Assembly: GCF_000003815.2 (NCBI RefSeq) | Contig: NC_049985.1 | Span: 21,796,442-21,860,441, forward strand | Length of the DNA: 64,000 nucleotides | Source of the DNA: Branchiostoma floridae | Lineage: Eukaryota; Chordata; Leptocardii; Amphioxiformes; Branchiostomatidae | Direction: 5' to 3' | In this document: positions 3,737 to 29,500 of the stretch, piece by piece | Layout of the letters: each line of letters starts with the position of its first letter | How positions within the stretch are numbered: position 1 is the first letter of the stretch | Translations under genes and position numbers: made by a program | The notes under the pieces: generated by a model | What the model saw: the letters and a program-made list of their open reading frames with translations, nothing else | The model's database searches: none | What the model was told of the DNA's origin: nothing

Positions 3737-6700
3737 ATGGCTTTACAAATAATAACTTTAAATGCACAAGGGATGAGGGATGATACTACCAGAAGGAGTA
3801 TATACAGATATATGAAAGACCAGAAAGCAGACATAATCTGCTTACAGGAATGCCATGTTAACAATGTTCTGGATCAAGAAACCTGGACGAAACAATGGGG
3901 GGGAAAAGCCATTTGGAATTCCGGGAAATCTAATAGGTGCGCTGGGGTAGGTATTTTGTTTTCTCCCAACACACAGTGGTGTCACACTAATGTTGTTACA
4001 GATCAGAATGGGAGAGTAATCTCTTGTGATATATATAATAAAAAGGATAAATTTAAACTATGCAATGTTTATGCCCCGAACCGGTGTGGCGAGAGGAAAA
4101 AATTCATTTAAGAACTTCCAATCTACTTACAAGGCTCTAACAATACCAACATGATCATATGTGGTGACTTTAATTTTGTCGAAGACTTGGTTTTGGATAA
4201 AAAGGGTGGGATTTCATCAGATGGTGCTGCAGGAAAAGTAGAGATGGAATCACTGTGTGCTCAATTTCAAGTATCAGATCGGTGGAGGGCACTGAATCCG
4301 ACTCAACGCAGGTACACGTGGAGGAACAAACAGTGTTCAATACAAACTCGGCTGGATAGGTTCTACTGTTCTCAAGGTATTCAAATAAAAGGTTTCACTT
4401 ACTTACCTGTCTCTTTTTCAGACCACGACGCGGTTAAGATGCAAATGGATAGTAACATTAAAAAGCAACAAAAAGGGCCTGGTGTATGGAAAATGAATAT
4501 TTCTATTCTGGAGGACTGTGAGTTCCAACAAGAGTATGAGGAAGCTTTCCAATTTTGGTGTCTGTTGAAACCATATTTTGTAAATGAAAGGGAATGGTGG
4601 GATGAAATAAAAGTGAAATCAAAGAGACTGATCATTAAACATTGTTGTAGAAAGGCGAAAGAAAGAAGGCAGCAGAAGGATGATTTGACTAGACAAATCA
4701 AGGATCTTACGTATATTTTAGCACAGCCAAATCCCTCCACAACAACGGCAATGGATTTGGCACGAGCCAAAGAAAAGATGAATAGTTTATTAAAGAAAGA
4801 AGAAGAAGGTGCAAAAGTTAGAGCAAGGATTCAATGGATAGAAAAGGGGGAAAAGCCAACTGCTTTTTTCCTGAAGAAAGAAATTAGAAGGGGTAAGAAG
4901 AAAATAATTGAAGAAATAAAGAACAAAGATGGTGATATCGTGACATCCCAGGAGGGAATAATGGAAGTCTTCAGGGATTTTTATGTTGATCTGTTTTCTG
5001 AGGAGGAGATGGATTTAGAGTGCCAGGAAAAACTTCTTGACAACATACAAAATACTCTGCCGTCTGATGTAAAGGATTTTCTAGATACACCGTTGACAGA
5101 GGATGAGTATCAAATTGCCTTAAAAGATTTAAGTAACAATAAAACGCCAGGTGAGGATGGACTCCCAAAGGAGTTTTATTATCACTTTTGGCCTCTAATA
5201 GGTAAGCATGTTGTTCATGTTTTGAATGAAGGATTGATTAATCAAGAACTAACTTCATCCCAGCGAGGGGGTTTAATAACCCTAATAAATAAGCCGGGAG
5301 ACCCGTTAGAGGTAAAGAACAAGAGACCGATCTCATTACTTAATGTAGATTATAAAATTCTTTCAAGAGCATTGACAAACCGCTTGAAACATGTGCTACA
5401 ATTTGTCATCAATAAAGATCAGACATGTTCTGTTCCCGGAAGAAAGATTACAGACAACCTTTTAGATTTTAGAGACATTATCGAGTATATAAATAGTCAT
5501 AATTCTAAAGCAGTTTTCATGTCGTTGGATCAGGAGAAAGCCTTTGATCGGGTAAATCATAAATACTTAGACAGAGTATTGCAAAAGATGGATTTTGGTC
5601 CTGTATTTCGGAGTTTTGTTCAAACCTTGTACAAGAAAGCTTATTGTAAAATTTCGGTAAATGGTTTCCTTTCTGATGAAATACCCTTTACAAGGGGTGT
5701 CAGACAGGGATGCTCACTTTCCCCTCTACTATACATTATTGCTCTTGAACCTCTTGCTTGTTTAATTAGAAATGACGAAGAAATAAGAGGTGTTAAATTG
5801 CCAAATGGAGATGAGAAGAAACTATCTATGTATGCTGACGATACAAATGGTATCCTTACAACAGATAATTCTATAAACAAATTGTTTGACGATATTAATA
5901 TCTATGAGAAAGGTACAGGAGCCAAGTTGAACAAAGGAAAAACTGAAGCCCTCTGGTTAGGGCAATGGCGTGGGAGAAGAGATGAGCCAATAACAATTAA
6001 AAGATGGACATCCACAATAATCAAATTATTGGGAGTGTATTTCGGCAGCGGAAGAGTGATCAATGTTAACTGGAATGACAGGGTTAAAAAATTTAAAAAT
6101 GCCTTGAGCAAATGGGACGGCAACAGATTGTCTTTCCAAGGCAGAACTGTCGTTTTGAATACACTTGCTGCCCCATGTCTATGGTATATAGCCCCTGTTT
6201 TCCAAATGCCTACCAGATATGCCAATGAAGTCGAAAAAGCCGCTTTTTCATTCTTATGGGGGGGTAAATCGCAACAGATTAAGAGAGACAATCTTTATTT
6301 ACCCAAAGAACAGGGAGGTTTGGGAGTAGTCAACATACCAGTTAAAGCAACTTGTATGTTTGCCTTAAAGTTTAAAGAGTTGTGCAAAGATGACACAATA
6401 GCCTGGAAAGTTTTAGGACGATATTGGTTAGGTCTGTTTTTGAGAAGATTGGGCTATGTCAAGTGGACAAATACAATACCACATACGGTGGAATGGCCTC
6501 CTATACAAAATAGTTTAAAATCCCTAGTGGAATCTGTTAATAAAATGGATACTACCTATGACTGGCAAACTGGTGAACTGTCAAAATTATATGATCTTCT
6601 CACCAAACGATTGATTGTCAAACCAAAAATTGTAGAACAAAACCCAGCCAGGGAATGGAAGAGATTATGGCAAATGGTGCATAATGATATGTTGCCCAAT

Positions 6701-7171
6701 TTTATCAAAGATCTAAATTGGAGGATCATACATCAAATTGTCAAAACTAAAAGTCTCCTTAAAGCATGGAAATATGTGGCAGATAACAAATGTGAATGGC
6801 CTGGTTGTGGGAATGTGGAAACACTGACACATACTTTTTTCTCATGCTCAAAAGCAGAGGAAGTGTGGTGTTGGGTCGAAGGTTTTTTGAGAAAATGGCT
6901 ATGTCCTACTTTCCAAATTAGGAAAAAATATGTGCTGCTGGAAGACCCTGCACTTGTAAGTGGATTGTCTAAACAAAAAGAAGAAATAATCGCTTACATT
7001 GTCTCCATTGTGAGACACCAGCTGTGGGTAGAAAGATGTTGTATGTCTTTTGAGAAAAAACAGACAGCCGCAAAAGGAACAATTGTTACCCTGAAACATC
7101 AATATCGATTTTCAAAGACTCCCAAGAAGCGAATTTGTCAAGAAGTGGAGAACAAATACTCACTGGTTTGA
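3737..7171 (+). pseudogene. LINE ORF2: endonuclease-reverse transcriptase with one in-frame stop
   Basis: The frame begins with MALQIITLNAQGMRDD, typical of the EN start (QxxxxNxxG), then ICLQECHV. It is broken once by TAA at 4109-4111, and the same frame resumes at once with GDFNF and SDHDAV, completing the EN domain. The RT fingers-palm follow: 'NKTPGEDGLPKEFYY', 'RPISLLNVDYKILS', 'SLDQEKAFDRV', 'GVRQGCSLSPLLY' and the catalytic MYADDTN near 5830. The tail has a C-x4-C-x7-H-x4-C knuckle (CEWPGC...H...C). The domain order and RT phrases fit the Tx1/L1 group. With a single stop in more than 1,100 codons, the insertion is probably young; function would need read-through or repair. Confidence 0.85.
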
Positions 7172-7651: not shown

Positions 7652-10600
7652 AGTCCATACGAGGAGCCACAGTCGTCATTACTGGCTGCAGTTCCGGTAT
7701 CGGCGAAGAGATGGTGTATCAGTACGCTCGGCTGGGAGCAAAGATCCTCATCACAGCCAGGAGGGAGAACAGGCTGAAGGAGGTGATGTTTTCCTTCTTT
7801 GTTTCCTCACGTAACTATTCCTGCAGTCTTCTAGGTAGAAGAGATTTTAGCCGATACAATGACTATATATAGTCTCTAATGTCGTGTCTCTGTTTGTTTG
7901 TTTGTTTGTTTGTTTGTTTGTTTAATTCTTCGAATTCTACCACAGGTTGTGGCCAAGGCGATGTCCCTGGGAGCCCAGGAGGCGCACTACGTGGCCGGGG
8001 ACATGGGGAAGGCGGAGGACTGTGAGAGAACCATTCAAACAGCCAAGGAAAAGTTCGGTAGGAAAACAAAACGCCGTTTCATTGCTGTCTTTTTAAAACA
8101 ATTGATACATACATGTCTCTCATATTGGGTACCTACTTGCTGTAATAATACACCAAGGCGAATTATACTAATAAAGAATTGACTCGTAGCGCCTGGCTTT
8201 GTATTTTATTTTATATTTTGTAATAGAGTCCATTCCAAGACACCGTGCGGATGTTTGTTGCCATTGTTTAGAATTGATTTTAAAGTTTTGTAATTATATG
8301 TCTAGGACATTTGATACTTTAGAAATATATTTAACACTGTTTCAACTTTAGAAATATTTCCCTTGTCCTATTAAAGTTTGGAAATAATCATGGTGTGGAA
8401 TTGGATACTTATAATGTTTCTAAATAATGATAACAGCATTCTACCATTATTTACCATTTTCTACCATTTTTTGTAAATGTTTCAGTGGGCTGGGAAGATA
8501 GCAATTCTCACATCCTTGCAAAGTATGGTTGGGTGCCATGCAACAATGGCCCGCCACAAAGGATCCACCAGTGCCCAGCAGTGAAATCTAAAAATATCCA
8601 GATGCAACCATAGGGCTTACTTTTATGGGGCAATAAACTAATTTTACCATTTGGCGAAGTTTACAAAATATTTGTAAATGTGAAATAATCACACAGAGGT
8701 TTCACAATTATTCTAAATAAAGATATTTTTGTACAGTTACTTGCAAAATATTTCTAAAATGTTAAAAGGAATTCCAATAGATGAGTATTTTCTTAGTCAT
8801 TTTTTTTGAAAAGAATTTAATTATTGTGGCTCAGATATTCTTTTATTCAAAATAATTCGGACTAATTACAAATATCACCTAAAAACCCTCATGGTGACTT
8901 GGAATGGACTCTATATTGTCTTCTTTGCAAAGTTTTGCATTATCATTTTGATATAGTACGTTTCTTTCTTCTTACATCAGGAAGGTTGGACTACCTTGTC
9001 CTGAATCACGCGGGCTCAAGTTTTGGACCAATCAGCGAGAGGGTGACAAAGTTACAGACGTGGGACGAGGACCTAGACATGGACTTCTACGTGGACTTCA
9101 TAAACGTCAACATGATCAGTTACGTCCGGTTGGCCTCCCTGGCCCTGCCTCTACTGAAGGAGAGCAGCGGACACATCACAGTCATGGGCTCCCTGGGAGG
9201 TATTTAATTCACCTTTATCCGCGGGGTAACCTATATCCGTTGTTCTTAAAAACGTATTTAGGGATATCAAGGTGACGGATGGTGGTCTCAAACTACAGCA
9301 TTCTGAAACTAGAGTTCAACGAACCCATCTCTTCGCCAAATAATCATGCCTTTATTTAAGACTTTAAGGTCTTATTGTTCCTCACAAACACACAAACATT
9401 ACCAAAACCAGACTGTGACCTAACAGATGACCTGGTAGCATCCCTGGTCAATCAGAATTTCATGCTTGTCAATTTAGACTTTGTCCCCAGTGTAAGGGCG
9501 TCCTCCAGCAAACCATCTGTATAACAGCTGTGTCCATAGATATAGGTCAAAATGAGATATATAGAGCACAGTTTATTTCTGTTAATAAGTTTTGCTGCAG
9601 TACCTTAGGAAGCCGCTAGGGGGCCCACTATCATAATTTATCTTCGTTTTCCTGACCCCTACCCACCTACCAAATATCATCAGGATTTTTTCAAGGCTTC
9701 TCGAGTTATGCATTCCACAAACAAAAGGACGCACACACTCGGCCTGCTACCGTCCTAACGGAAAATGCTACGTCAACTATTTTCGAACACAACCTTCCTT
9801 TCCGCAGCCGCTACTTAAATACTAAATATCATGAAAATCCATACACAGCTTCTTGAGTTATATGCTGTTGGCATGGATTTATGAACTTTCCTCATTAATT
9901 ATGCAAATAAGCTACTAATTTGCATAATTAGTATTACATTGTTTAAGTCATCACTCATTCTATCTACATACCGAAAATCCTGATGATCTGTTTACACGTT
10001 CTCAAGTTATCCTCGTCCAAAGTTTGAACGGAAATCGGTGCCTGCAGTTCCCAAAAAGCCGCTAGGGGGTCCAAACTCACAGCACTTACTCTCTGTTTCA
10101 AGGGCTATCTACCACTCAAAAATCATGACCACAGCATGTCCAGAACACGAAGTGCCAAAATTAAAAGTTTTGCTGCAGTACCTTAGGCAGCCACTAGGGT
10201 GCCCATTATCGAACTTGACCTTCGTTTTCCTAACCCCAATCCACCTAACAAATATAATCAGGATCCATTCAAGGGTTCTCGAGTTATCTTGCTTACAGAC
10301 AAACGCACTTACATACAAATCCCGCTACAGCACCATAGGTAAGAGCCAGGTAAACCATTTTCGCACTTGACCTTCCTCTCCAAAACCGCTACACACCTAC
10401 CAAGTTTCGTGAAAATCGCCCAGCTAGATTTTGACTTATGCTGCCAAAAACAAACCGCAAAAAACATACCAAGCTCGCTGCAGTACCGTAGGAAAACGCC
10501 AGGTAAACCGTTTTCAAACTTGGCATTCCTTTCGACAACTGCTACACACCTACCAAAAATCACAAAGTTCCATCCACAATTTCTCGAGTTATATGCTGTT

Positions 10601-12390
10601 GACCTACATACAGACCCAAGTCAAGCAATCTCATACTCTTCTTGGCGAAGAGAAATATTGCAATTTGAGACCACTGTCTGTCGACTTGATTTCTCTAAAT
10701 AGTTTTTTTTAAAGCAACGGATATAGGTTACCCCGCGGATAAAAGTTAACTAGCGTTAACGTCTTTAAGAAAACTTGAGGCACATCTTAATCAAACAATA
10801 AAGCATTTTGACCAATCTCTTTTTTTAGGGTAGCTATGCACAAAACGTGTAAATGTAGTCTAGTGGTCCATATAACGTTATATAGCTGTGTATTTTGTGC
10901 CGGATCGCAATTCTATTACACATTCGGTCGGTCAAATTCTACCATGTTACCACTGTGAGAGATGTGGACATCAACTAAAAATAGATACTCAAAGAAGGAT
11001 TGCCGCCTGGGCCTGACAAAAAGCATTAGATTCATTATACGCTACGGCCGCGTTGCGCGTTGGTACACCCGATCCCTTTATCTCGGAAGTTAAGTAACGC
11101 GCGGACCGGACAGTGCTTGGAAGGGAGACCCCCAACCAAGGACGTCCGGATTGCTGTAGCCTCACGAAGCTTTCCACGAAATCGTCTTCCGGGAGGGACG
11201 TAAAACGGGGGTCCCGTGCTCGATCGATCGAGGAGGTGCCTCGACCACGTTAGACATAATTTGGGTACCTACTGGCTGGCAAAATACACCTGGTGATTAT
11301 CATTATTATTACCAAAACAATGGATTTTCTTTCTCTCTTTATTTTAGGAAAGATGACGTTCCCCTACTTTACGTACATGAGTACGGCAAAGTTTGGGCTG
11401 GACGGGTTCTTCAGTTCCCTCCGTGTGGAGATGATGAAGACCAACAAGAACGTGACCGTCACCTACGCGGTGATCGGATTCGTGGCCACAGAAGGATCGG
11501 TCAAAATGGTCAAGGTACGCCGCTCTTCGATTTATTTTTGTTCATTAGCCCATGTTGATTTGATTACTAGTATATGGATGAGATCCACACGCGCATCAAC
11601 TTTCGGTCGTTTCCAAAAATGAAATAAAAAGTTTCTAACCATAGTATAAATCGTCCAAAGCAGCTTTGAAATAAGCAAACATATTCCGTGGATTGCAAAA
11701 ACAAATGTCTGAAATCGTGTGCTATTATCATACAATATTCCAAGGTCAAAGAAGATGTGAAAGAACAAAAATGAAGAATCTATTGTATGGTATAATGTAT
11801 TCTGTGTGTGCAATCATTTGCTCAACCTTCCTGACCATTCAGATTTCATAATGAAGGAAACTTTCATTAAGCAGCTGAGTAGTAGTTGTGGAAACGAAGG
11901 TCAAGTTCAAAAATGGTTCACCTGGCATTTTTCGTCGGTACTGGAGTGGGCTGTGCATTTTTGTGTATTTCATTGTGGGCAGCATAACTCAAAAAGCTGT
12001 TGATAGATTTTAATGAAATTTGGTGGGTAAGTGGCGGTTATAGGAAGGAAAGTCAAGTTTGAAAATGGTTCACCTGGCATTTTCTGTCGGTACTGCACTG
12101 GTTTACCTGACATTTTCCGTCGGTACTGCACTGGGCTGTGGGTGTCTATTAACAGCATTACTTGTGGATCTATAACCTTCGTCAACATGCATTTTTCTAT
12201 GTACCAGAAACTGCCTGATGGAGAGAAGATGCTGGAAAGTGCAGCCCCAGTGAATGAGACGGCCCAGGCCATTATCCGCGGAGGGGCGATCCGTGCCAGG
12301 GAGATCTACGTCCCCTCCTACACCTGGCTCATCTCCAAAATCAGACAGTTGCCCGACTGGCTGGAGGATTATATAGTCCTAAATCTTTAA
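7652..12390 (+). CDS. HSD11B1-like short-chain dehydrogenase, copy B (first exon not found)
   Basis: Exons 7652-7782, 7946-8057, 8981-9199, 11348-11514 and 12208-12390 (TAA at 12388-12390) match copy A in length and phase. Motifs: TGCSSGIG (cofactor loop), LVLNHAGSS, ITVMGSLGG where family members have a catalytic Ser strand, then FPYFTYMSTAKFGLDGFF. As in copy A, Tyr is at Lys-5 rather than Lys-4. The last exon encodes LPDGEKMLESAAPVNE and ends IVLNL. With an 88-nt first exon like that of copy A the protein would be 299 residues, the usual family size. No such exon is visible on the plus strand between 2.56 and 7.65 kb, where the LINE lies. The first exon may be deleted, displaced or too diverged to see. 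Confidence 0.87.
7890..7924. repeat. (GTTT)n microsatellite
   Basis: Eight or so GTTT units in intron 2 of copy B, ending just before the exon 3 acceptor and probably contributing to its pyrimidine tract. Confidence 0.9.
8127..8168. repeat. Fragment of the 5S-headed SINE tail
   Basis: 'gggtacctacttgctgtaataatacacc' here resembles 'gggtacctactggctggcaaaatacacc' at 11263-11290 downstream of the 5S-like sequence, suggesting a truncated second copy of that element. Confidence 0.4.
8226..8911. mobile_element. TA-flanked TIR element, copy 1 (Tc1/mariner-like, non-autonomous)
   Basis: GAGTCCATTCCAAGACACC at the left is mirrored by 'ggtgacttggaatggactc' at the right, and both ends abut TA. A near-identical copy lies at 46056-46754. 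There is no transposase frame. It occupies intron 3 of dehydrogenase copy B. The TA flanks suggest the Tc1/mariner group, but TIR sequence alone does not prove it. Confidence 0.8.
9208..10749. mobile_element. Long copy of 'TTCACCTTTATCC' TIR family
   Basis: The left end 'ttcacctttatccgcggggt' is mirrored at 10712-10749 ('accccgcggataaaagttaa'). Subterminal 'tttagggatatcaaggtgac' and 'gaccactgtctgtcgacttg' segments are shared with the 14.75-kb copy. The interior is about 1 kb of degenerate repeat units. Shorter copies are at 14753, 17921 and 29996. It fills most of intron 4 of copy B. Confidence 0.7.
9592..10640. repeat. Degenerate 110-150-bp repeat units ('CTGCAGTACCTTAGG')
   Basis: Successive units start near 9592, 10038, 10170, 10319 and 10470, each with 'gctgcagtacc.tagg', 'gccgctaggggg' or 'gccaggtaaacc', 'cctaccaaatatca' and 'ttctcgagttat'. 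The repeat is dispersed: other copies are at 0.24, 11.9 (inverted) and 39.77 kb. Confidence 0.6.
11041..11162 (+). pseudogene. 5S rRNA-derived sequence (likely SINE head)
   Basis: The sequence opens 'gctacggcc' and holds 'cccgatc', 'atctcggaagttaagtaacg' (A-box region; 5S has AGCTAAGC), 'tgcttggaagggagacc' (C-box region; 5S has TTGGATGGGAGACC) and ends 'tgctgtagcct'. The length (about 122 nt) and element order match 5S rRNA, with many central substitutions. It is followed by non-5S body sequence, which fits 5S-headed SINEs (SINE3-type) better than a functional 5S gene. Confidence 0.75.
11041..11312 (+). mobile_element. 5S-headed SINE in intron 4 of copy B
   Basis: The 5S-like head is followed by a body with 'cttccgggagggacgtaaaa' and 'gggggtcccgtgct', then 'gggtacctactggctggc' and an ATT-rich tail (11297-11312). 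Its tail resembles 8127-8168. It lies just upstream of exon 5. The family assignment is inference. Confidence 0.6.
11880..12150. repeat. Inverted copies of the 'CTGCAGTACC' repeat
   Basis: 'gaaaatggttcacctggcattttctgtcggtactgcac' occurs in two and a half versions (11908, 12059, 12104), the reverse complement of units at 10.47-10.55 kb. It lies in the last intron of copy B. Confidence 0.55.
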
Positions 12391-12682: not shown

Positions 12683-14134
12683 CGGTGTACCGAAAGTGCG
12701 AAAAGGAACGAAAAGGAGCGAAAAGGAACGAAAAGGAACGAAAAGGAGCGAAAAGGAGCGAAAAGGAACGAAAAGGAACGAAAAGGAACGAAAAGGAACG
12801 AAAAGGAACGAAAAGGAAAGTACTGAAAGTGCGAAAAGGAACGAAAAGGAACGAAAAGGAAAGTACCGAAAGTGCGAAAAAGAACGAAAAGATTGGATAG
12901 GAACGAAAAGGAACGAAAAGGAAAGTACCGAAAGTGCGAAAAGGAACGAAAAGGAACGAAGTATGAAGCAAAGTGAAATAAAATCGATGGGAATATAAGG
13001 TAACGGCACTGTGATCGGCAAATGCATTTGCAACGGACTTTATTTTTGCATTTTGCGACTTGTTCCGCGAAATTCCTAGAGCTCCAATGGTTAAACGGCG
13101 AACCGGCGGGAAAGTGCACGCGTGGAAATAGCTAAATACAAATCAAAGGCGATGGGCGGAGTCACGAATCAGTGCGTCTCGGGTTCCCACGCGGGCTGTC
13201 ACAGATCAAATTCGGGGGGAGGGGGGTAAAAGCCGCTAAGTAGCGCGCCTGAAAAACGTTTGACGGGTTGACATTCTGGTGTAGATTATTTTTCTACGGT
13301 CTCAAAAATGTCACAAAGTCGTTTTCTAGTGGTCCCGGCCTAAATTATATGTGGCCCCGGGCAATCGGGACACCGCGTTGATTTCAATTCGAGGTCTGGT
13401 TCCAAAGACTTTTTCTGTAGAACCCGCACGGGAGACGTGAGTCAACGGCCAAATCTCTCCGTAGTTTCCCAATATCCTTTGCACAAATTCCTCACGTTGT
13501 CCTTTCTTCCCGCCAAAATGATGAATACTCATGGCACAACGTGATGAAAACTCCTTGGTACAATCACTACAATGTATACATGCCTATCCTTTCACACCTT
13601 TTCTTTTGTCGTGAACGAGCAAGAAGATATGTCTCCAGTCTCCAGAAAAACATGTTGTGGGCCGTGTTGAAGGGAGCTGTCATGCTAGTGGGGCAGCAGT
13701 TTATTAGCATATCATTCCAGGCCGGATTTCTATTAGACGTAAACAATCGCAAGAATTGCATGCGGTGCTCCCATCTTGGGAGAACAGAAGTCATCCAAAT
13801 ACAACAGCAACGCTACAATCTTGCCTCATTCTGAAAATGTACGTTAATCGATATTTATCTATCACCCGCCAGTAACTGAATTTTAGTCCTTACTGTCTTA
13901 TCTCAGTTCTGTTTCCTTGTATTTCGCTGATCTTCAGAGAATAATTTAGCCACACAAACACAACAGTCTAAAACAGCGCCGTAAAAAATTCATATTGCCA
14001 AATTCTAAAATAAAACACGTTTTAAAACACGTTTCATAGGCTTCTAACGCCCGCCGTACCGGTTCCTTATATTCTCATTGATTTTATTTTAGTTTGCTTC
14101 ATACTTCCTTCCTTTTCGCACTTTCGGTAGACCC
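12683..14134. mobile_element. 1.45-kb TIR element with 8-bp target duplication (hAT-like)
   Basis: The left end CGGTGTACCGAAAGTGCG and the reverse complement of the right end GGGTCTACCGAAAGTGCG agree over about 24 of 26 bases. Both sides are flanked by the 8-bp direct repeat ATAGCAAG (12675-12682 and 14135-14142). An 8-bp duplication fits hAT, P or similar superfamilies. No transposase frame is seen. The left TIR runs into the tandem array at 12697-12960. Confidence 0.75.
12697..12960. repeat. Decanucleotide tandem array (CGAAAAGGAA)n
   Basis: More than twenty copies of a 10-bp unit alternating CGAAAAGGAA and CGAAAAGGAG, punctuated three times by AAAGTACYGAAAGTG, which is the TIR sequence itself. 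All six frames stay partly open only because of the repeat; no protein is proposed. Confidence 0.9.
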
Positions 14135-14960: not shown

Positions 14961-15124
14961 CTAGTGTTAGCACAATTGAGTTGGGAATTCACAGATGATC
15001 ATCTGATGCCCTTGGTAGCCAACTGTGCTGCCACTCTCTCTAGATACCCTGGGTCTGGGTAGCCATTTCTGCAGGAAGAAAGCACATGTTGGAGTTATTT
15101 CCCAATGCAGTACTGTATTCGGTA

Positions 15125-15575
15125 CTTTTGAAATAGTTTCATCAGGTTGGTAGAGTATAGGATATAGGAGAATTCTTTTTACACAACCAGCAGGTACTTA
15201 CATTGCTTACGTTTCGATGTCTCTCAGACACCTTCCTCAGAGCTTCTAACTATAGTTCTGCTTCTCACCGCTATATGTAGCCGATGTAGGTGGCGCTTTT
15301 GCGGTGAGAAAACATTCGCAAAGGAGGTGATCTGGATAAGAAAGCCAACCCCAGTGATGGACCGGGACGAGGGGGATACAAGCTTAGCTACGTTTCGGAT
15401 TGTTTTCTCATCGCAAAAGCGCCACCTACATCGGCTACATACATTGGACTGTATGGCGGTGAGAAGTAGAACTCCAGTTAGAAACTCTGACGAAGGTGTC
15501 TGAGAGACATCGAAACGTAAGCAATGTAAGTACCTGATAGTTGTGTAAAAAGAATTCTCCTATATGCTGTATTGG
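15125..15575. mobile_element. Fold-back element with about 150-bp inverted arms
   Basis: The left arm ('aggagaattctttttacaca', 'cttacgtttcgatgtctctc', 'gatgtaggtggcgcttttgc') reappears inverted on the right ('gcaaaagcgccacctacatc', 'gagagacatcgaaacgtaag', 'aaaaagaattctcctat'). A relative with the same ends surrounds the assembly gap at 61.9-62.09 kb. Confidence 0.7.
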
Positions 15576-16391: not shown

Positions 16392-16625
16392 TCACTTTTG
16401 ATAAAGCACATACACTTTTGGCCCTCCATATGTGCTTGATTTCAGCTCAATGTCACTGCAGGCCACTTTATCACTGCCCCCTCTTGATGCCCTGATGGTG
16501 AACATCAGCTTCTGGTTGAAGGCCTTCTCCAGGAGATGCAGAACTCTTAACCCATCAGAAGTATACGGTAGGTAGGCCCGGTACAACATGCCACTGTAGC
16601 GCTTTCCTGGATTGGGATGCTCCGG
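16392..16625 (-). other. Exon: DTC core, short C-terminus
   Basis: The exon opens PEHPNPGKRYSG, then LLEKAFNQKLMFTI and SDIELKSSTYGGP, ending VYVLYQK-stop. Deltex proteins normally continue with a YPDPxYL-type C-terminal stretch, which is absent. Where family members have NEIHHKT this exon has SDIELKS. A further exon was searched for by eye in 15.6-16.39 kb and not found; a TIR element occupies that space. Confidence 0.7.
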
Positions 16626-19600
16626 CTGAAGATTAAAGATAAGGTCACGGTTAGGCCAAACATAAATGTTGTGTTTGTGGTTACCCAATAGCCTGGCTGC
16701 CAGACTGTTTCGAGGGCCTTACCACAAGCCAAATCCTTGGCTATAGGGCCAAAATGCCATCAAGTAAGTTCTTAGGTCCCTGAGTCAATTATTCCTTTTC
16801 TGACTTATCTTCTTGGAACTTTTTGTGAAAAATGCCCCTGCAATTCCAGAATTAGATGCTAAGGGGCCCAAAGTTATGTCACTCCTTTTCGAGTACAAGA
16901 GCTATCTTCCACCTAGAAATTGTGACTATTATTAATAGCATGTCCAGAACACTGTGGTGTGGAAGTTCAGCCCAAAATCTTGTCATTTCCAGTTTTCGTC
17001 ATAACCTACCGATACACCAAATATGAAACCAATCCATGAAGCCATTAATGAATATTTCATGGCCTGATAGTAATAAAATGTTGAATGTTCTTTCTTCGAA
17101 CTCTGTTTATGTCATTGTATACAGGGTACGCCTGTAAAGTAGTGTGTTAACAATGATGAGGGTACCTATCCTGTGTGAAGAAAACAGAAACAAAATAAAT
17201 AAACTTACCCCATCCTGAATTCCATCTTGAAAGACAAAGTCTACGAGGATGGCCCCAAATTGGTGGTAGCCTTCGAGAGACACGTCACTACTGGTGGAAT
17301 TAACCTTCATCCTTCCTTTAGGCTGATTGGTCAACACCAGACTGGGCACAAAGGTCAGACAGACAGGGCACCGAGGGTCATTCTTCAGTGCCCTGACTAG
17401 GCACTTTGTGCAGAATGTGCCCTTGCAACCTTAAGAAGAAGTGAAGAAGTTAGCTTGAAGATAAACAGCTTTGCAGGATAAACTAGATTTCCCCGGTATT
17501 TGGAATAAAAGCCGCTGGAATAAAAGCTAATCTTACAGCATTGAAAATTAGCATATCAAAGCGATAAACATTTTCAATCATGTCATAAACCAGTAAACCA
17601 AGTTTGTATATGCATAATTGTATGCATATACATATAATGTAATATATTATATCAAGGTGTAACCTAGTATACTTGCCAAATAAGTGAACAGTCCACTGAA
17701 CCGATCACTGCAATGCTGACACGTATAGCCTCTACCAGGCTATGTAGATCGGTGGTCTAATTGTAGAAATTGGACAAATAGAGTCTATAGTACGCTAGGG
17801 GGTCGGCCAGTAGATAATGTTTTTACTGTTTTTACTATTTGTCCATTTTCTACAATTAGACCACCAATCTACATAGCCTGGTAGATGCTAGACACATATA
17901 CCACACAAGTGTAATGCTAGTTCACCTTTTAATCCACCGGGTATTACCCACCATATATGATAGATATGGTGTTTTTTACTTTTCGACTTTATATCTCTAC
18001 TTCTAAATGCCCTGTTTTCAACAGCAATGGGTACAGGTTACCCTGAGGATAAAGGTGAACTAGCATGAACAGTATTCACATCACCAGGATCTGATCAGTG
18101 GACCAATCACCCATTCAGCAAGTGTACCAAGAATATATATATATACAAGTATGGGGTTGGACAGTAACCTTGGCTTCTGCAGGGGAGATATGTTGGAGGG
18201 ACTGATACTGTCAACCAGCATCTATAGCAGATGGGGTCCTGCTGGGTGGTTACAGTCCTTACTTGGTCTGCTTTCTTGCCTCCAACAGTAGAATGTCTTC
18301 CAGACAAACTGCTTACTCGTAGCTTGGAAGACAGTTCTTTCTCTGTTGACAGCGACATGCCATATTGGGCATTTGTGGGACTGTTTTTTACCAGCTTTTT
18401 CTTCATGACCGAGTAATCGATTGTAACATTTGCTGATTCAAAATCCACGGTGTGAAAACGTGGTTTAGCCAGTTCACTTAATCTCTGCGTCATCTCTCGT
18501 GAGAACGATGCCGCTTCATAGTCGCCCCCCTCCCGAGCTAGAGTCTCTGCAAACTCGCACGTGCTCTTGGTGCTTGCCAGACTGATCTGCGCTCCCTCTA
18601 TCCCTGCTTCTATCTGTTTTTTCCTGCATCCTACCTCTGTATCAATACAGGCTAGAAGTCGATCGCCTTCTTCCTTCACAAGTGTAAGAAGAGATTGTAC
18701 GGTACTACGCACATTCTTACGTGCTTCCTCCGCATGTTTTAAGAGATGTTGCTTCAAACGCTTCTGGGCGTCTTCTTCCCGGTGAAAGAATTTTATTTGG
18801 GCCTGGCATTGCAGTGTGAGGTCAAGGATCGCCTTTCGCTTTTCTGTAGCCACTTCTTCTATGCGTGTGTAATCGTGCTGCGCGTCTCTGTGTTCGAAAA
18901 GGGCACATTCGTTACATATCGGTGTCTCGCAAGTCCTACAGTAGAGCTTCAGGATTTCTCCAGGATGTTTGGAGCACAGTGGAGCTTTCCTGTCCCTGAA
19001 GATGTTGTCGTATTTTCCTATCTTGAGTTCCTCGAAGGTGAAGAGCGTGTGACCCTTGGTTGCCTTGACGACTCGATGCGCCGACTCACACCTTGTACAG
19101 AGGAACTCTGCACACTCCGAACACCTAGATGTGGCTGCCTTGCCTTCGTCACAGTTTGTACAGTGGATGCCATCTTTACTGTGCCGGATGTAGTTTTGCT
19201 CTGCTAAGGCCTCTACTAGACTCTCCATGAAGAAATTGTCCTTTAGGCCTGCAACTCCGTTTTGTGGTAGAGTGACTTCGTGGCAACACAGAGGGCAAGG
19301 AAAAGTCTCCTTAACATTCCTCTTCACCCATTCTTGAAGACACAGTGTACAGAAGGTGTGAAGACAGGGGATGAGGATCTTGGGTTTCTTGAAGATGTCA
19401 CAACAGATTGAACATTCAAGGAAGTCATTGCTGATTCTTGCAGGCAAATCAGTCTCTCTGGTTCCTGTTGTAGCTTGGGACTTGCCATCTACCTGTTAGA
19501 ACAGAAACAGTTTCTTATCTTTGAGTGTAACCACATTTTGGAAAATACACCCAGTCTTGTTTTTAGAAAATACTGTATCATAACTGATAAAATGAGATGA

Positions 19601-21104
19601 GAGAATTTGAAAGTTGATAAGACATAAAATTTAAATACGTTAGTTAAATATGTTAGTAGACCCTGCATGATGCTTATCAAGCTTCTTTCTATTGCACAGA
19701 AGTTCTTGGCATTATGCATTAGGTTTGATTACAACAATTTATAAACAAAAAAAAAGAGCCCCATATTATTATGTAATGTACATTTTAAGAAAATAAAACT
19801 CTTGCAATGCCGTTTGTTACCTTTGTATTTTCTGGAGGACTCCACCTCTGAACTTTTACTTCAACACCATTCAAGACATGCGGCTTTCCCAAAACTGTCT
19901 CCACAGCTTTAAAACAAAACAAGTGTGTAAAATGTGTGTAAAAATACATGTATCTGTATTTGACATGCATGTATATAAAACCATACATGGACCTGACCTC
20001 TGATCCAACTTTTGGGCATAACACATAATATTTAATACTTCAAAGGTGAAAGGAGGTATAACACTGAAACATTATCCCCATATAATTCTGAGTGATTCAA
20101 ACAACCCTGCAAATCCTAAATGTTCACTTTGAAGTCAGACACTCACCAGTAACTGTAACATTAGTTGCTCCTCAAATTAGCACTCGCATATAGACAGACC
20201 AGTTTGGTCCTATTTTCTGTATTGCACTTGACTAAGAAAGTGGGGAAAAAATCAACTCTACCCTAAATGACATCTTATAAAATACCTGCAGGATCCAGAA
20301 AGGTGACCTTTGCCTCAGTCTCTGTTGCCATGATGACAGACTCCACTGTATTTCCGGAAACCCAGGCGATCCCCATGAAGTGGTTCTCCAGCTTGTCCCT
20401 ACTCACAGTCTCGGGGATGTCGGACACCAGAATGGACCTGCTGGCTTCATCCTCCTGTTGCTGAACAATTCTTGAACATTCATGGTAGCGTTTTAGAAAA
20501 TTTGTCAACGTTAACGTTACAACCGGAAACAAGATGGGGCCTGCACGACATTAAAAATAATAAAATTACCAACATAACAACGATGAAAACAAATAACGTT
20601 ACACAGTTTTGTGACAAATATTTCGAATAAAATTAAATTATACTGTAAATGCATTTAAGTTCGCGGGGATTTAATTTCGCAGTAAAAGCGGGAAAAAGGA
20701 CTTTTCGCGGCAGCAACATGCACTGTAGTCTCTTACTGCTATGGAAAAATGTTCGCGAGGAACAATAAACCACCGCGAAAGTTTCTGCATTTACAGGATA
20801 CCATTTGGCTCGCCCCTGCGGCGTCGCCAAAAAGCACAATCCCCTTTAGGCTGCCGAATTGATATAGTCATATATCTCTAGCCTTCTATACTACTTATAT
20901 TGTAACGTGACCCACACAACGGCCGGCCTGCCATGAGAGAGGTTTGTATTGAAGAAAACTAGCAGTCTTTGGTCCATGCAAATCAATAACGGCATCATTC
21001 ATGGAACTGGAAGTGCTCCGCAACGGGCATCTCCTACGGATCACAGCTGTGCTCCAAGACCGCTAGTCTTTTATACAGATCTTTACTCACCCGCCAGTGG
21101 CCAT
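16392..21104 (-). CDS. RRM-TRIM-Deltex fusion, predicted E3 ubiquitin ligase
   Basis: Coding exons on minus: tentative 21104-21091 (ATG in CATCATGGCC, donor GTGAGT), RRM exon (5' edge unsure, 20286 at its 3' edge), 19906-19821, 19492-18169, 17429-17209, 16625-16392 (TGA). The RRM-like part reads SILVSDIPETVSRDKLENHF, then VLNGVEVKVQRWSPPE, like the N-termini of DTX3L/PARP14/NMI. The large exon holds a canonical C3HC4 RING (codons 27-69), B-box 1 (111-139), B-box 2 (173-207) and a coiled coil (about 215-330). A second RING starts at codon 422 and is completed by the next exon (GTFCTKCL...CPVC), leading into a Deltex C-terminal domain with GIQDGPEHPNPGK and AYLPYTSDGLRVL. The predicted role is ubiquitin ligation, with DTC binding of NAD+/ADP-ribose known for Deltex proteins; the fusion's function is unknown. 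Phases join across every internal junction, arguing against two genes. Confidence 0.82.
17209..17429 (-). other. Exon: second RING half and start of DTC domain
   Basis: The acceptor TTCTTAAG and donor GTAAGT are good. Together with the end of the previous exon it gives eight cysteines spaced C-x2-C-x12-C-x4-C-x4-C-x2-C-x10-C-x2-C and no histidine. The usual Deltex pattern is C-x-H-x2-C in the middle. The DTC start ('LTNQPKGRMKV', 'LEGYHQFGAILVDFVFQDG') matches the Deltex TMxW/PGY/GTI-type region in layout. Confidence 0.75.
17731..17885. mobile_element. Fold-back MITE, about 52-bp arms
   Basis: 'tctaccaggctatgtagatc' begins an arm that is repeated inverted and ends 'gatctacatagcctggtaga'-like at 17885; arms differ by a few bases and the loop is about 50 nt. 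It is intronic in the TRIM-Deltex gene. Confidence 0.75.
17921..18059. mobile_element. 'TTCACCTTTATCC' TIR family, 139-bp copy
   Basis: The ends 'ttcaccttttaatccacc' and 'accctgaggataaaggtgaa' are mirrored. It is the shortest of four family members here, in the same intron of the TRIM-Deltex gene as the fold-back at 17731. Confidence 0.65.
20641..20796. mobile_element. 'TACTGTAAATGCA' MITE, copy 1
   Basis: Left 'tactgtaaatgcatttaagttcgcgg', right 'ccgcgaaagtttctgcatttacag'. Internal 'gcactgtagtctcttactgc' is shared with copies at 32460, 47132 and 58631. It lies upstream of the RRM exon. Confidence 0.75.
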
Positions 21105-21409: not shown

Positions 21410-23529
21410 TGCGCTATGTTACTCGTACCTTTCCAAAACCAAAAGGACTTTGCTTTCCGCACATTAAATCCTTGCATCACTAGATTCATTTCTTAACGTA
21501 AAGCCATACAACAAGAAAGTGTAGTGAGCAAGATAGGTTTTATTATAAGCAGACCGGATAAAACTTTTCTATAATAAATAGATATAGATTATCGTTTCGA
21601 TTCATTGAGTGATTAATATGAAAACTATATTATTGATCTGAAACTATTTTGTGGCTATAACAAAAATAACGTTACATGGTGAGGGTAAAGTCTTCCAAGA
21701 ACACTTTTTTTAGAGATACAACAAAATGAGGCATCAACACGCAAGATAACTTGACACAAAGTTTCTTATCTGCTTTTATTTACAATATGCAGTAATAAAA
21801 AATACAAAGAGAACATGACATACATGTACATTAAGCACATTGTGTCTTACATAAGAAGCTTGGGTACCACAGATCCATATAACGTTAACATTGCATGTTG
21901 TAGAAATGAAAATTTTAACATAACGTTACATGATTAATACATTATCACTATGCTAACAATTACATGAACAATGCTGGCTGCCTTTGATATCAAATGCTAT
22001 AAACTGAGTTATACCAAAGTACCAAAAATGTCTAAGAAACTACGAAAAAGTTTACTTGCTAATCTACTAATTTCTCCAGTATTTTTTGCATCCAACAACC
22101 TTTAAGAAAAGCACATTCTGAGACATACGAAAAAACAAAGGCCTTTGTTCTGAACAACAAACCTGGCCTGCAAGCTTGTTCAGTTGTACGGAAAAGTCAA
22201 AATCTGCCTGCTTATAAACTAATACAGGTCAAAGAGGTTATATGAGATCATATACTACCTCCTTGCATACAAAAATGTAGGCTAAACAAATGATGCTTTT
22301 AACATACTTATTGTGCCAGCAAGATAATACATTCAAAAATTCAAAAGAAATATCATATAAAATTGAAAGTACATGATGAGTTGCGCTCAGCTCAAAATTT
22401 ATGAAGTAATGCATTTGAAAGACAAACATTCATTGTCTTAAGACAGACATCTCACAAAAAGTCACTTCAATCTTTAAGAAGTGAGGCAGTGACGTAGCTG
22501 GGCTAACTACTGGTTTCTAGCCAGTATAGACAGGAATTTTTTAAAAACACATAACAGTTACATTATCTTTGTACACTGTTTCTTCATATCAGCTCACGAA
22601 ATATTACAAAATAACATTAAGTTCAATGCCTACACTACATACAAATGTAGTTTCTAAGTGGTCTACCCGGAATTATACTATTACTTATCAAAGCACTTAC
22701 TTCTTTTACTAAATTGTTCCTTTTGAAGGTTTATATCATATCATTTTATGTACAGAGAATACAGAAAAAATTGGTCACTCAATGTGACTGCTATCCTGAA
22801 GAAAAATTAAACTGACAATTCAAAATACAAAGTCAAAATACAAAATACATTAAGTTAGAGCAAAAAAACACTTCACCACCAACAAAAGAAGTGAAGCTCT
22901 CCTCCAGCTAGTACACATGTACATATGAAAGGACTAAAACTACACTACTTAGCATATTATGCTTACTACTCTGTTATATATACATCTTTACTGCAGGAAC
23001 ACTACTTTAAAATGTATTGCATGTTGTCCCTCTTGTTACATGTAAAATGTGTGTTAACTAAATTTATACTGTTGACCAGTACTCTACAATAGAGAACTCC
23101 ACAGTGAAGAATCTATCTCCTAACTTCATTATGAAATTCTTATACGTGTACATTCATTCTAGATGTTGAATCAAAAAAGACTTTCTTAAGTATGCTGTTA
23201 GCCTCAAGAGAGCTGCCTCTAACAAATGAGGTATTTGTTCATATGAACTGCAATTGAACTTGATGTAGACAAAAGCAAAATCTAACAGATATGTAAAGAC
23301 AACTATCATTAACTGATTATTCAATGTCATATAGTTGACTGAACGTTTCGTGGGATGAGAAAATTCCATGGAAACATCTTCAATGCTTTGTTACAACACA
23401 ACAGTACTAGTAAACTGGTAAAGTGGTACATGTTTCTTGCATTATACAATTTTGCACAGTCAGACTTTACAATGTAATTAAGTGTGCAACTAACATTTAA
23501 CATTTAGCATTTCCATTCAGAGAAACGTC
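21410..23529 (-). other. Probable long AT-rich 3' UTR of the VEGFR-like gene and short spacer
   Basis: No coding frame or obvious repeat. On minus, the VEGFR-like stop at 23530 is followed by about 1.75 kb to AATAAA (plus-strand tttatt 21775-21780). The absence of repeats here, in contrast to the rest of the window, suggests transcribed 3' UTR. This is inference. Confidence 0.4.
21775..21780 (-). other. Candidate polyadenylation signal AATAAA
   Basis: Reads TGTAAATAAAAGC on minus, downstream of the VEGFR-like stop codon. Another AATAA-type stretch near 21539 is possible. Confidence 0.35.
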
Positions 23530-26500
23530 TCACACATCTGTCGTGACAACCGTGTTGTAGTCCGGGGGTGCTTCGTCGTAGGAGTGGAATCCACTGGAAT
23601 TGTGGGAGTCGCTGGAGGAGACGGAGTCGTTGCTCTTGCTGCTTCCTTGGCCTTTCCGAACACCCAGGCTTACATTGGGTAGGGCCTGTAGAGAGAAAAT
23701 ACCACAAAGGGAAATGAGCAAACGAGTTGAGCATTGGTATGTGGCTTTTCAAAGCAGAGATCGCATATAAAATTCTTATTTTAGTCCATTCGGCTCTACT
23801 CACTGTATGCAAGCAAACTTTAACTTGGCATTTCTCTTTACTTAATAAGCAAACAAGCTGAGAGCATGACACTGCCAGCATAAATCATAGGAATGATGAG
23901 TCTTGCAAGAGTACAATAATTCAAATAACAATAGCAGTAATAATCAAATCAAAAGAACAACAATTTAGCATTGCAGGGACTGTTATCACAAAAGCATTAA
24001 AGTCACAATCCCAACTGCAGTTTTTCAAGTTCAAAGAAAGCAATGTTTGCCAGAAACTTCTAAAAGTTTTGTCCAACACCATATGCATGGCATGTGTTCC
24101 ATGCTGCACATAAGATATACATGGAATATCAGATTTGAACTTCCTGTTGCCTTCCAGTTCCATTAGAATACAGCACCAGTTGTCAATGATGAGGGTCTGC
24201 ATGCCTTTTTGTGTTAGGTGTAGCGAGCAATTTACCAGTCAGCCATCCTAAATTTACTTTTAATCATAGCCATGTCCCCCACATGCAGACCCTCTGTGCA
24301 GACAAAAACAACAGGCACCATGCCATTCTACAACAGCCATCCTCTACATCCATTCCACTCTAAGGCAGGTCCTGAGAGAGGACAGCTATTGTCACTTAAG
24401 CCCCGTTTACANNNNNNNNNNNNNNNNNNNNNNNNNNNNNNNNNNNNNNNNNNNNNNNNNNNNNNNNNNNNNNNNNNNNNNNNNNNNNNNNNNNNNNNNN
24501 NNNNNNNNNNNGGAGGCATGAACCTGATGCCAGCTACGAACATCTGGCAGAGTTTCTTCGTCGGCATCAGGGTCATACCTCCTCATAATTTAGAGCTCGC
24601 TGACAACTCGGCCGAGCTAAATTCTTGATTTGTAAACGGGGCTTTAAGAAGACGGGACCAGAGCAAAGGCAACAGGAACTGCAATATGTTTTATGAATCC
24701 ATGTATATCTTATCACATTATGCACACCCAATGATTGGTTTTGTGATGACCTCTGAGTGACATGAAGGGAAATCAGATGAGTTGTGGTCACACCACCTTG
24801 GCATCGCTATGGTAACTCGCTCGCTGTCCCGGATGGTCCATCAGTATCTTCACAGCCTCTTCCTCGTCCACAATGTCACCGTAGGAATGTCTCTCCGGTC
24901 TGCTGTTGTCGTAGTTTCCGCTGGCGGGGCGGGACGTCCGGCGCTCCTCGTCTGTGGGGAATGTCGGGAGGAAGCTGTCCGTCTCCGTGGGCGAGCTGGG
25001 TATCCCAGAATCCTCGTCGTCATGGATTTCAGGTGAAAGGTCAAGGTACTCCTAAGGGGAGGGGGGTAATGTAAAGTTAGTCATTAATTGCGAAACAAGG
25101 AAGAATCATTGTTAGGATTCTGTCCTTTTATGTGTAAATGATCTCTGTAACTCAGAAAAAAAGGATCAAATTTTGAAAAGGCTTGCAGCTGTCCATTGCA
25201 AGGGAGATACTACATGTAGCTTTTATGTAAAAAAAAGTTACCAATTTCAGAAGTTAAATGTATGTTAGATTACTTGGAGATCATGCTGAAAATGCAGTAA
25301 ATGCCATTTCAGAGGGCTGAATTTTCAAAATTTTCAATTCAAAGGATGCATTCCTCCAGATCCCCCAGAAAAGCTCACGCCTGCAGAACTCCTCCTGCAC
25401 CTGCAGCAATTACTAGTCCAAGAAATCTACAAAAGAACCGGGAACCCCCCCCCCCACCCAAAAAAACAAAAACAGCCATGTTCATGGTCACAGTTGATAC
25501 TTGAAATGAGAGACACACTAATGTCTTGCTTGTTGAGAATCTCTGGCAGGTTTCGACATCCAGAACCACCTGTAAGAGGTCGAAGGTCAGACCCACCTGT
25601 TCAGCCGTTGCCTCCAGCTGGCTGCTCATGCTCTCTGCCAGGTCGGTGAAGGTGGGGCGCTCGGTGGGCTCCAATCTCCAGCAGGTCAGCATCATTTGGT
25701 ACCTGTGGGCACAGGAGCAAAGTATGAAGTTCACATCTTAATTGTTTTAAAGCCTTTTAATAAAATCATAGACTGTCAAAAACCATTAGTATCTATACCA
25801 TAGTCAACAAGCTTTGGCAAAAGGTTGCCAATTTTCTAAAGACAAGTGTATATTTTGGCTGAAAATCTACCGGTAGCACCATATCGCATTGGGCTCATAG
25901 GCCTGAGAACATCTTTGAAAGCCAAGCAACAATTGACAGAACATAATAACAGCAAAAAATGTTATTTGGAGTGAGTAATTTACAGTCCCGCTTGCATCAT
26001 AGTAATCAACTCTGACAAATCTATATGCGATAAGAGCTCATTACTGTCGCATGCGTATCCCATTACAGTTTAGCGCCTCCACCAGCCAGAACGAGTTTTT
26101 CCCTATCGGGACTGTCTCGGCCATTCATATACAGGCGGCGGGTGCATCAAAGACACTTCGAGATACAAAAAATGTACTTAAAGAATCATGATCCAAGAAT
26201 TGATTTTCTGTAAGGGACCACTTCAACAAATTTCAAGTGTGAGAAGCTGTTTTTAATCAATCTTTACAGAATGAAACTTTTAATACTAATAGCATTGCTT
26301 ATAGACCAATGTACATGAACGTTGTGTCATCAAAGTCGACTTACAGATCATCAGACGCATGTTTGGGCTGCCTCATGCGGAAACCTTGTCTCAGCTTGTC
26401 GAAGAAGTCCTCATTGATCTGAACACCAGGGTACGGGGAGCCACCTGACACGGAAAATGAAATAAAGCAGTCTTTAATATCCATGCATTCATCATCATCA

Positions 26501-29500
26501 TCATTTGTCATCCTCTTGAGAGGTGATGCAAACGAAGTTGGCCTTCCAGAATTGCCTGTCCTTCATCGCCGTAAGAAGACCTTTCCCCTCCAGACCTGTT
26601 TCTTCCTCAATGAGCTTCTTGAGAGTTGAGCTTGGACGACCGACTCTTCTCTTAGTGTCGGGGGACCACAACAATAATCTACCAGCTGGTTCGTTGGCTC
26701 GTGCCACGTGACCCGCAAGGCACAGCCGTCGCTGTTTCACTTTTGTAGAGACTTTTGGTAGTGGTCCGTACAATTGTTTGTTTGTAGTATGTTTCCACCA
26801 TGGACAGTTATAGACTAGACGAAGCATCCTTGTATATGTGCCATTGAGTTTTTGGGAATGTGTTTTAGTCATAAGCCAAGATTCAGATCCGTACAACAGA
26901 ATTGTTTCAATACATGTCTGAAAGAGTTTTGTCTTGGTTTGTTTTCTGATGGGGGATTTCCAAACTCTGTGCAATGAGTGAAGGGCACTCCATGCATTAT
27001 GATATCATTACAAAGTAACTTAGGCAAGAAATACAAAAATCTATTCCACAAAAAAATGGTGGTAACCATGTTTTTTAGCATTCTGTATGAAGTGGTCTCA
27101 GTTAAGTTCAATTTTTACTCTACTATGATGTTTGGAGTATGGAATGCCAAAAAAATCATAAATGTCTCTATGAACATTGTTCTAACTATCCATAAAATGC
27201 TGCTCTATAATTTATTTCTACAAGATGCAAAAAAGATGTAAACCTAACATACCAAGCTCAAAGATCTCCCACAGTAGCACACCATAGGACCAACTGTGAA
27301 CCAAACAAAAAGAAAACAGTTAACTCCAAATGAATATGTTTGGCCAAGGCAAGTCAAGTCAAGTCACATAAAAAAGAAGTCTTTCAAAGCAATAAACACT
27401 GCGAATATATAACAGCCAACTTACACGTCACTCTGGATAGTGTAGCTTCTGTCAAAGATAGATTCCGGAGCCATCCACTTCACTGGCAGGGGTGCCTGGG
27501 TCAGAAATTCAAATATTTGAATATTCTTCCATGCTTGAGATAATTTCATATCTTAACTCATATCAAATACTATGGTGACAAACAAAAAACTACGGTTACA
27601 GTACCATAGACAAAGATTGACATGTTTTAGTTTACTTTAGAACGAAAAGTAGTTCGTTTCAAATTGACACTTACATTTCCCATTTTGACGTACTCAGGGT
27701 TGCAGTAGACGTCTCGTGCCAGACCAAAGTCACAGATTTTCACCACGTTGTGTTTGGCAAGTAGGACGTTACGGGCAGCCAGGTCACGGTGGATACACTG
27801 GTGGGAGCAATGGTTTCATAAGAACATCATTCATTGTAGTAATGATTCACACAATGCAACTTTCAAAGGTATTATAGGCATACAGTATGTAGATGTGAAA
27901 GGTAAAGATCCCATAGACTAAGTGGTTACATTTACAGGGCTAATCGGTTGTTATCCACTGTGTCTAGGGCACGGTATTGGAAAGCGAAGCCAAACTCTCC
28001 TTCCACTGCCTTTTACCTCCCCAGCAAAAGCCAGATACCCAGTTTACTTGGGAAGGGTGAGGTTTGTTTGTGTTTGTTTGTGCCTTTAGTTAGACTCGAA
28101 AGTGCTCCATTTCAGCCTTTGGGGCCACTTTTGTGGAGGTCGAGTGTAAGGTGTCTTTTCCAAGGACACATCATCTTCAAGGAAAGATAGGAACCAAATC
28201 ATTGACCTTTCAATCTTGTCTCCACTATCAGCCATTCAACGACACTCCAATATCTATAAGATCTTGATACCACATTTCCACCATCTTTCATTATAATTGA
28301 TTGATATGTCGAAGCATCGTACCTTCTTGGAGGCTAGGTACTCCATGCCACGAGCCACCTGGTAGGAGTAAGACACCAGGTCTTCCAGAGTCAGGGGCTC
28401 CCCATCATCACAGGTGTAGTCATAGTTCATTATTCCTAGGGGGAAAAGCATAGTTAAGTTCATTAGACTTCACAAAAACATGCTCTCTTAAACATAGTAG
28501 ACCTTAAGTCAGCAACATGACAGATTACCGGGGGTATACACATGTATGTCATTAAAGATTAGACATCCAGGAAGCAAGATTTTTATTCTAAATTGCATCT
28601 AACCAACTGAAGCAACTGGATATGATTTTGGAAATGGTCAGATATAACATCCATTTTCTTTTGTCAGTGAAATTGAAGAGATGTTGTTGAAGAGCAGGTT
28701 TTATATCCTAACTAAATGTGAATTGATGTGTACATTTGCTTTTCTGTTTTCCTTTTAAAATTTGCACTTATGAGTATGTTGGCACTGTTATCTACTGAGG
28801 CTACATGTACTTATGTTTTGAGTAGAAGGCTTCATGTAAGCAATGTGCTTGTTGCATGCCTAATACTCACAAAATATATTGTGAATAAAAGAGACAAAAA
28901 AGGTGCTTTGAACTTAAGTACCTTTCTAGGTATGATAAAAAAACTTTCTTTTAACTTTAAGAAACAGATAAAAATTGATGTGTGTGAATGTCTGTATAAT
29001 CAAATTAACATGGCCGAGCAAACAAAAAAGATTTGCATCAGATTGGCAAAAAAAGGCAACTGTACAATGCTTTACAGGTTGCTGCCAGTTAAAAAGGTAT
29101 GGTAGCAAAATTGAAATTACATTAATCAATATATCAAATCTAAAATCCATATCAACTTCTGGCCCAAACAACTGAAGAACTTTTCTCACCTTCCTTGCTA
29201 ACAGTCCTGAGACATTTTCCGTTGGGGCTGTCGACGTAGCGACAGTTGTCGTACCCTGACGATGAGTTGGACCTGGCCAGCTGGTCCTTCGTCTCCACAA
29301 AGCCCTTCCGCTTCCCTCGCAGGTAGTTAGAAAGGTTGCCGTACTTACAACACTCCACAATGACATAGAGCGGGCCTACAGTAGACAAAGAAACAAAATG
29401 GTTTATTTGCACTACTTACTTTTAAGTAAGCATTGCTTTTAAAAAAGCAATGCTTATCAGGCATAGAATTTTGTAGTATTGATCATCTTCTGCCATTCCA

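Follow-up and report, generated by a model that had tools for sequence, protein, structure and literature searches.

A predicted Branchiostoma floridae gene combining an RRM, a TRIM module and a Deltex C-terminal domain with altered catalytic residues

The 64,000-nucleotide stretch of Branchiostoma floridae DNA analyzed here (contig NC_049985.1, positions 21,796,442 to 21,860,441; referred to as the window and numbered from its first letter) contains, on the minus strand, an RRM, a complete TRIM module of a RING, two B-boxes and a coiled coil (RBCC), and a second RING followed by a Deltex C-terminal domain (DTC). As predicted from the genomic sequence, these parts most likely belong to a single gene, here called the fusion gene, but this is unproven. 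On balance, we favor a protein in the order RRM, TRIM RBCC and RING-DTC, which would be a TRIM-type ligase carrying a catalytically altered RING-DTC in its targeting slot.

TRIM and Deltex ligases are handled as separate families, and the predicted fusion joins both. It would test whether a TRIM coiled coil replaces the KH-like oligomerization of DTX3L, and its natural His-to-Glu and Glu-to-Gln Deltex site would be a ready-made test of what a DTC does without the chemistry. A lancelet fusion gene of this kind would also extend the unusual TRIM genes of Branchiostoma (PMC3503706).

Exons, phases and domains of the fusion gene

The fusion gene is modeled as six coding exons (A to F, Table 1) that give 701 open codons counted from position 20460. 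All five introns are GT-AG and their phases agree (1, 0, 1, 0 and 2). The domains and the phases are observed in the DNA, and the transcript that joins the exons is what we infer from them. The joining of RRM, TRIM and Deltex parts in one gene, put forward in a preliminary description of this DNA, holds as the best reading of the phases, of the missing start codons and of a RING split at an exon junction, while the strand (minus) and the exon structure had to be corrected.

The RRM matches the Pfam profile RRM_PARP14_3 over profile positions 2-74 of 82 (E value 4.8e-13 on the RRM piece; 49.4 bits, cut-off 24). The RRM-like domain noted earlier is thus confirmed by profile, and it spans two exons (20286 to about 20460, and 19821-19906) instead of lying in one. 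An ATG at 21104 is a plausible start of the gene, and the donor of this candidate first exon is the highest among the seven donor scores quoted in the analysis, all of which come from a home-made scheme with general-knowledge weights and serve as rough guidance. The acceptors of exon A that fit the phase of this donor (20470, 20440 and 20437) look poor by eye, so the modeled 5' end of the gene is tentative.

Exon C carries the TRIM module, and the order RING, B-box, B-box and coiled coil given in the preliminary description is borne out by the Pfam profiles and by the alignment with the TRIM3 structure 8amr, which is the best solved-structure match of the TRIM part (E value 5.1e-30). The zf-B_box profile reported two stretches (E value 1.1e-16), and ANCHR-like_BBOX gave 26.4 bits on B-box 1 (cut-off 27) and 34.8 bits in a shorter piece. 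Since the RRM precedes RING 1 in the gene model, the RING is not at the N-terminus, unlike in the TRIM/RBCC family, whose RING is N-terminal. The first Met of exon C is found only 3' of RING 1 and an in-frame stop lies two codons upstream of the exon; therefore, an upstream exon is needed.

At the other end, the gene extends beyond the TGA at 16392-16394, where it had been taken to stop. This TGA is reached only by reading through the donor of exon E (CAA AA/GTGAAT, a possible phase 2 donor); it overlaps the GT donor after 16396, and exon F beyond it supplies the DTC tail, which contradicts the earlier gene end. Exon F lies outside the region covered by the preliminary description, and its phase 2 acceptor (TTTCTTCCTGCAG) is rich in pyrimidines. 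Without exon F, the DTC profile (PF18102) is covered up to position 113 of 133 with 95.2 bits, and with exon F it is covered over positions 3-133 of 133 with 120.4 bits (E value 7.8e-35), so that the DTC is complete. Compared with the DTX3L tail, exon F had a BLOSUM62 score of 72. In 1000 dinucleotide-shuffled versions of the 1.5 kb downstream, the highest score was 29, and among all other sites in the window that follow an AG, the best reached 27. An ATTAAA at 14838, downstream of exon F, could serve the full gene. A DTC shortened by the stop at 16392 was dropped as a candidate when the tail NGYPDPGYLERVAAQLATKGIR was found downstream.

The second RING and the junction of exons C and D

RING 2 is divided between exons C and D, and has eight Cys, no His and an unusual long spacing. 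The second RING and the Deltex domain had been assigned to two exons; the Deltex domain is confirmed, but the two are encoded by exons D, E and F together with the 3' end of exon C, and RING 2 is not canonical. The zf-RING_2 and zf-C3HC4_2 matches of the joined RING 2 are both under their cut-offs, and a standard RING pattern was restored by none of the 25 splice pairs listed among the 84 in-frame C/D pairs. It is equally possible that the His was lost at C-K-G-T-F-C or that an alternative register with eight Cys applies, and the latter resembles the C4C4 RING of CNOT4. RING 2 may bind zinc and would not be a standard Deltex RING.

The two exons nevertheless fit each other. Exon D contains only the second half of the RING, and because an in-frame stop lies directly 5' of it, exon D must be spliced in. 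The 94-nt segment that closes exon C was shuffled 20000 times, and only 9 shuffles contained an open frame with C-x2-C-x(9-18)-C, a pattern that was chosen post hoc. The gap from CYRC to LPC is 12 residues, the same as in the DTX3L RING.

Several observations weigh against a single gene with a TRIM-type activity. The C/D donor at 18169 is weak (0.4) compared with the donor at 18263 (4.2), whose use parts the TRIM module from the first half of RING 2. The joined RING gives 22.6 bits with zf-RING_2 versus 23.9 bits for exon D alone, and 25.3 bits with zf-C3HC4_2 (cut-off 27) versus 27.5 bits for exon D alone. Shorter transcripts could be terminated at two intronic motifs, ATTAAA (17933, C-D intron) and AATAAA (15977, E-F intron), and the first exon is a candidate only. 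Finally, the linchpin position of RING 1 (after the last CXXC; role as given in PMC7615817) is Cys, whereas it is Arg in TRIM2 and TRIM3. Because of this replacement, ubiquitin ligase activity of RING 1 is predicted as likely but not certain.

Some of these observations would be explained if one locus had two outputs, namely a TRIM transcript, spliced from the donor at 18263 or terminated within the C-D intron, and a minor or alternative isoform that encodes the full fusion. While the higher score of the 18263 donor and the ATTAAA at 17933 agree with such an arrangement, the segment between both donors is open with the RING half rightly placed, as rarely seen in the shuffles above, and exon D lacks its own start and has a best acceptor that calls for a phase-1 donor. 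We consider two outputs unlikely. It is less likely still that TRIM and Deltex are two head-to-tail genes that the model has wrongly joined. The weak C/D donor and the slightly lower RING profile scores once the exon C half is added point that way, but exon D starts right after an in-frame stop with only the second RING half, inspection by eye of the C-D intron (739 nt, three frames) gave no convincing alternative first RING half, and frame 0 of this intron holds one CQHC, near palindromic repeats. A decaying gene copy or pseudogene, which would fit the altered RING 2 and catalytic residues and the weak donors, appears very improbable, given 701 open codons, five modeled introns that are all GT-AG and in phase, and the conservation of the remainder of the DTC and of all RING 1 zinc ligands.

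The C-D intron also contains a near-palindromic element (17723-17893), like the last intron (Table 1).

Catalytic positions of the DTC and comparison with known proteins

In the single fusion gene that we favor, the DTC matches three distinct solved sequences at E values up to 0.01: DTX3L (3pg6, 1.9e-31), DTX2 (6e-20) and DTX1 (6.4e-16). The catalytic columns were located by counting positions on these three alignments, and the catalytic His was found to be Glu and the catalytic Glu to be Gln (Table 1), while the motifs NQPKGRM, EHPNPGKR and GYPDP are kept. For the third pocket position, an Asn lies opposite DTX2 His594 and a Tyr, six residues earlier, lies opposite DTX3L Tyr719; this position is ambiguous because the fusion protein has a six-residue insertion there.

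It has been proposed that DTX2 His582 and Glu608, which are described as strictly conserved among DTX proteins, activate the 3' hydroxyl of ADP-ribose, and every tested substitution in DTX2, E608Q included, impaired the reaction (PMC7615817). In DTX3L, formation of ubiquitin-DNA (Ub-DNA) was abolished by H707A, considerably impaired by E733A and defective in Y719A (PMC11460948), and H707 and E733 are also named in PMC10810221. The preliminary description had suggested a ubiquitin and ADP-ribose signaling ligase, and this is contradicted by the residues at both catalytic positions; the antiviral or DNA-damage role that it also raised is speculative. The Deltex chemistry (ubiquitylation of ADP-ribose or nucleic acid) is probably lost, and no ADP-ribose- or nucleic-acid-ubiquitylating enzyme would be expected because the catalytic dyad is replaced. 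A working ADP-ribose-ubiquitylating ligase with divergent catalytic residues is the least probable of the alternatives. The coverage of the DTC profile over its length, the best match to DTX3L and the three kept motifs speak for it; the changes at both catalytic positions, one of them to the tested impairing Gln, the effects of H707A and E733A on DTX3L, and the non-canonical RING 2 speak against it.

While these residue identities are observed directly, we propose the activity and the function as follows. The TRIM coiled coil would dimerize the fusion protein, RING 1 would carry out ordinary ubiquitylation by recruiting E2~ubiquitin, and the RING-DTC at the C-terminus would fill the slot held by the targeting domain in other TRIMs, with a role as a recognition or scaffold module. 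The frame of the protein would be DTX3L-like, with a TRIM2/3-like RBCC where DTX3L has its KH-like domains.

Like DTX3L, the fusion protein has an N-terminal RRM (the RRMs of both were not compared directly) and a C-terminal RING-DTC; the DTC of DTX3L is the best solved-structure match of its own, and both are without the two-residue insertion after EHPNPGK that is present in DTX1 and DTX2. Unlike DTX3L, the fusion protein has a TRIM RBCC in the middle, replaced catalytic His and Glu, and a RING 2 of eight Cys and no His. The layout of DTX3L is RRM, five KH domains, RING and DTC, with KH domains that contact PARP9 and PARP14 (PMC13224862), and its KH-like domains are reported to serve dimerization in addition to these contacts (PMC11080071, PMC13224862). 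In the fusion protein, no KH domain was matched by profile at E values up to 1, although such searches can overlook KH-like domains. Between the matches to the RRM and RING 1, 32 residues are uncovered, and between the coiled-coil match and RING 2 about 64; both stretches are too short for the five KH-like domains of DTX3L.

Most simply, the gene would be DTX3L-like with an RBCC replacing the KH-like block, and we infer that vertebrate-style binding of PARP9 and PARP14 would not be expected because of this replacement. More tentatively, a DTX3L-like protein of this lineage may have given up its KH-like region, which serves oligomerization and PARP binding, in exchange for a complete TRIM module and lost the ADP-ribose-ubiquitylating chemistry with a second RING aboard, so that the DTC would be a non-catalytic reader on a TRIM ligase and the protein a natural pseudo-Deltex; we regard this as possible but somewhat doubtful.

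With TRIM2 and TRIM3, the fusion protein shares a RING, two B-boxes and a coiled coil in that order, and it differs by the RRM ahead, the RING-DTC behind and the Cys at the RING linchpin. Its match to RRM_PARP14_3 relates it to the third RRM of PARP14, whereas, unlike for PARP14, no macrodomain, WWE or ADP-ribosyltransferase match was obtained in the profile search of the fusion gene model. Four clustered PARP14-like proteins have been described in Branchiostoma (PMC13224862). The TRIM-MATH genes of Branchiostoma are similar in having a TRIM module with an unusual C-terminal domain, which is MATH and not Deltex, and they have been attributed to recent recombination in the lineage (PMC3503706).

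Table 1. Features of the fusion gene in the window (a slash marks the splice point)
Feature	Position	Strand	Basis or remark
Candidate first coding exon, uncertain (ATG GCC ACT GGC GG)	21091..21104	-	donor GG/GTGAGT, score 6.2, phase 2
Exon A, 5' limit uncertain	possible acceptors 20540, 20470, 20460, 20454, 20437	-	
Exon A, 5' half of RRM	20286..20460	-	RRM_PARP14_3 match and splice phases
Exon B, 3' half of RRM	19821..19906	-	enters in phase 1 and leaves in phase 0, both introns GT-AG
Exon C, encoding the TRIM RBCC, a linker and the first RING 2 half	18169..19492	-	441 open codons
RING 1, C3HC4, all eight zinc ligands	19286..19417	-	zf-C3HC4, E value 3e-11
B-box 1	19046..19162	-	ANCHR-like_BBOX, protein residues 198-236
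B-box 2	18866..18988	-	zf-B_box, protein residues 256-296
TRIM coiled-coil region	18422..18865	-	TRIM3 RBCC structure 8amr, stretch 2, query 172-357, i-E value 7.6e-12
Competing splice donor inside exon C	18263	-	CAA/GTAAGG, phase 0, score 4.2
First half of RING 2 (CYRC...LPC), 3' end of exon C	18169..18229	-	phase-1 donor AAG/GTTACT, score 0.4
Exon D, RING 2 (second half) and DTC start	17209..17429	-	phase 1 fits exon C
Exon E, middle of DTC (EHPNPGKRYSG...)	16396..16625	-	donor AAA/GTGAAT, phase 2, score 1.2
Catalytic His position (DTX2 His582, DTX3L His707), Glu here	16446..16448	-	3 of 3 alignments (DTX3L, DTX2, DTX1)
Near-palindromic element, 416 bp, in the last (E-F) intron	15156..15571		120-nt arms, 92% complementary
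Exon F, DTC tail NGYPDPGYLERVAAQLATKGIR and stop (14999-15001)	14999..15068	-	acceptor, phase 2, DTX3L-tail similarity
Catalytic Glu position (DTX2 Glu608, DTX3L Glu733), Gln here	15023..15025	-	3 of 3 alignments (DTX3L, DTX2, DTX1)

Database searches and other features of the window

When the fusion protein (without exon F) was searched against the window by tblastn, only its own exons were found at E values up to 1. Rfam gave no match in the window, and NCBIfam gave only rad18, with 40 bits and far under the cut-off of 175.05. In the viral_contigs collection, which holds no animal genomes, two stretches fit a pattern and neither encodes a DTC relative. No description of the RRM-TRIM-Deltex architecture was found in literature titles and abstract openings of open-licence papers, which is weak evidence of absence. 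The main text of PMC3503706, on the origin of TRIM proteins, contains neither "deltex" nor "RRM", and that of PMC11788884, on domain shuffling, contains neither "deltex" nor "DTC".

Elsewhere in the window, a LINE-like retroelement at 3323-7168 on the plus strand comprises two open frames, divided at 4109-4111. It has reverse transcriptase and zf-RVT domains, and its endonuclease-like matches are under the Pfam cut-off. It is flanked on both sides, on opposite strands, by short-chain dehydrogenase-like exons (1103-1573, minus; 8866-9204 and 11260-11619, plus), each of which alone is under the Pfam cut-off. The open frames at 23507-23884, 25378-25737 and 26504-27004 (all minus) had no match in the Pfam profile search. 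Immunoglobulin-domain exons lie at 32668-33138 and 39106-39561, both on the minus strand, and the latter matches the VEGFR1-3 N-terminal Ig-like profile at its cut-off. A tandem array at 12699-12960 consists of 25.4 copies of a 10-bp unit with 76% matches.

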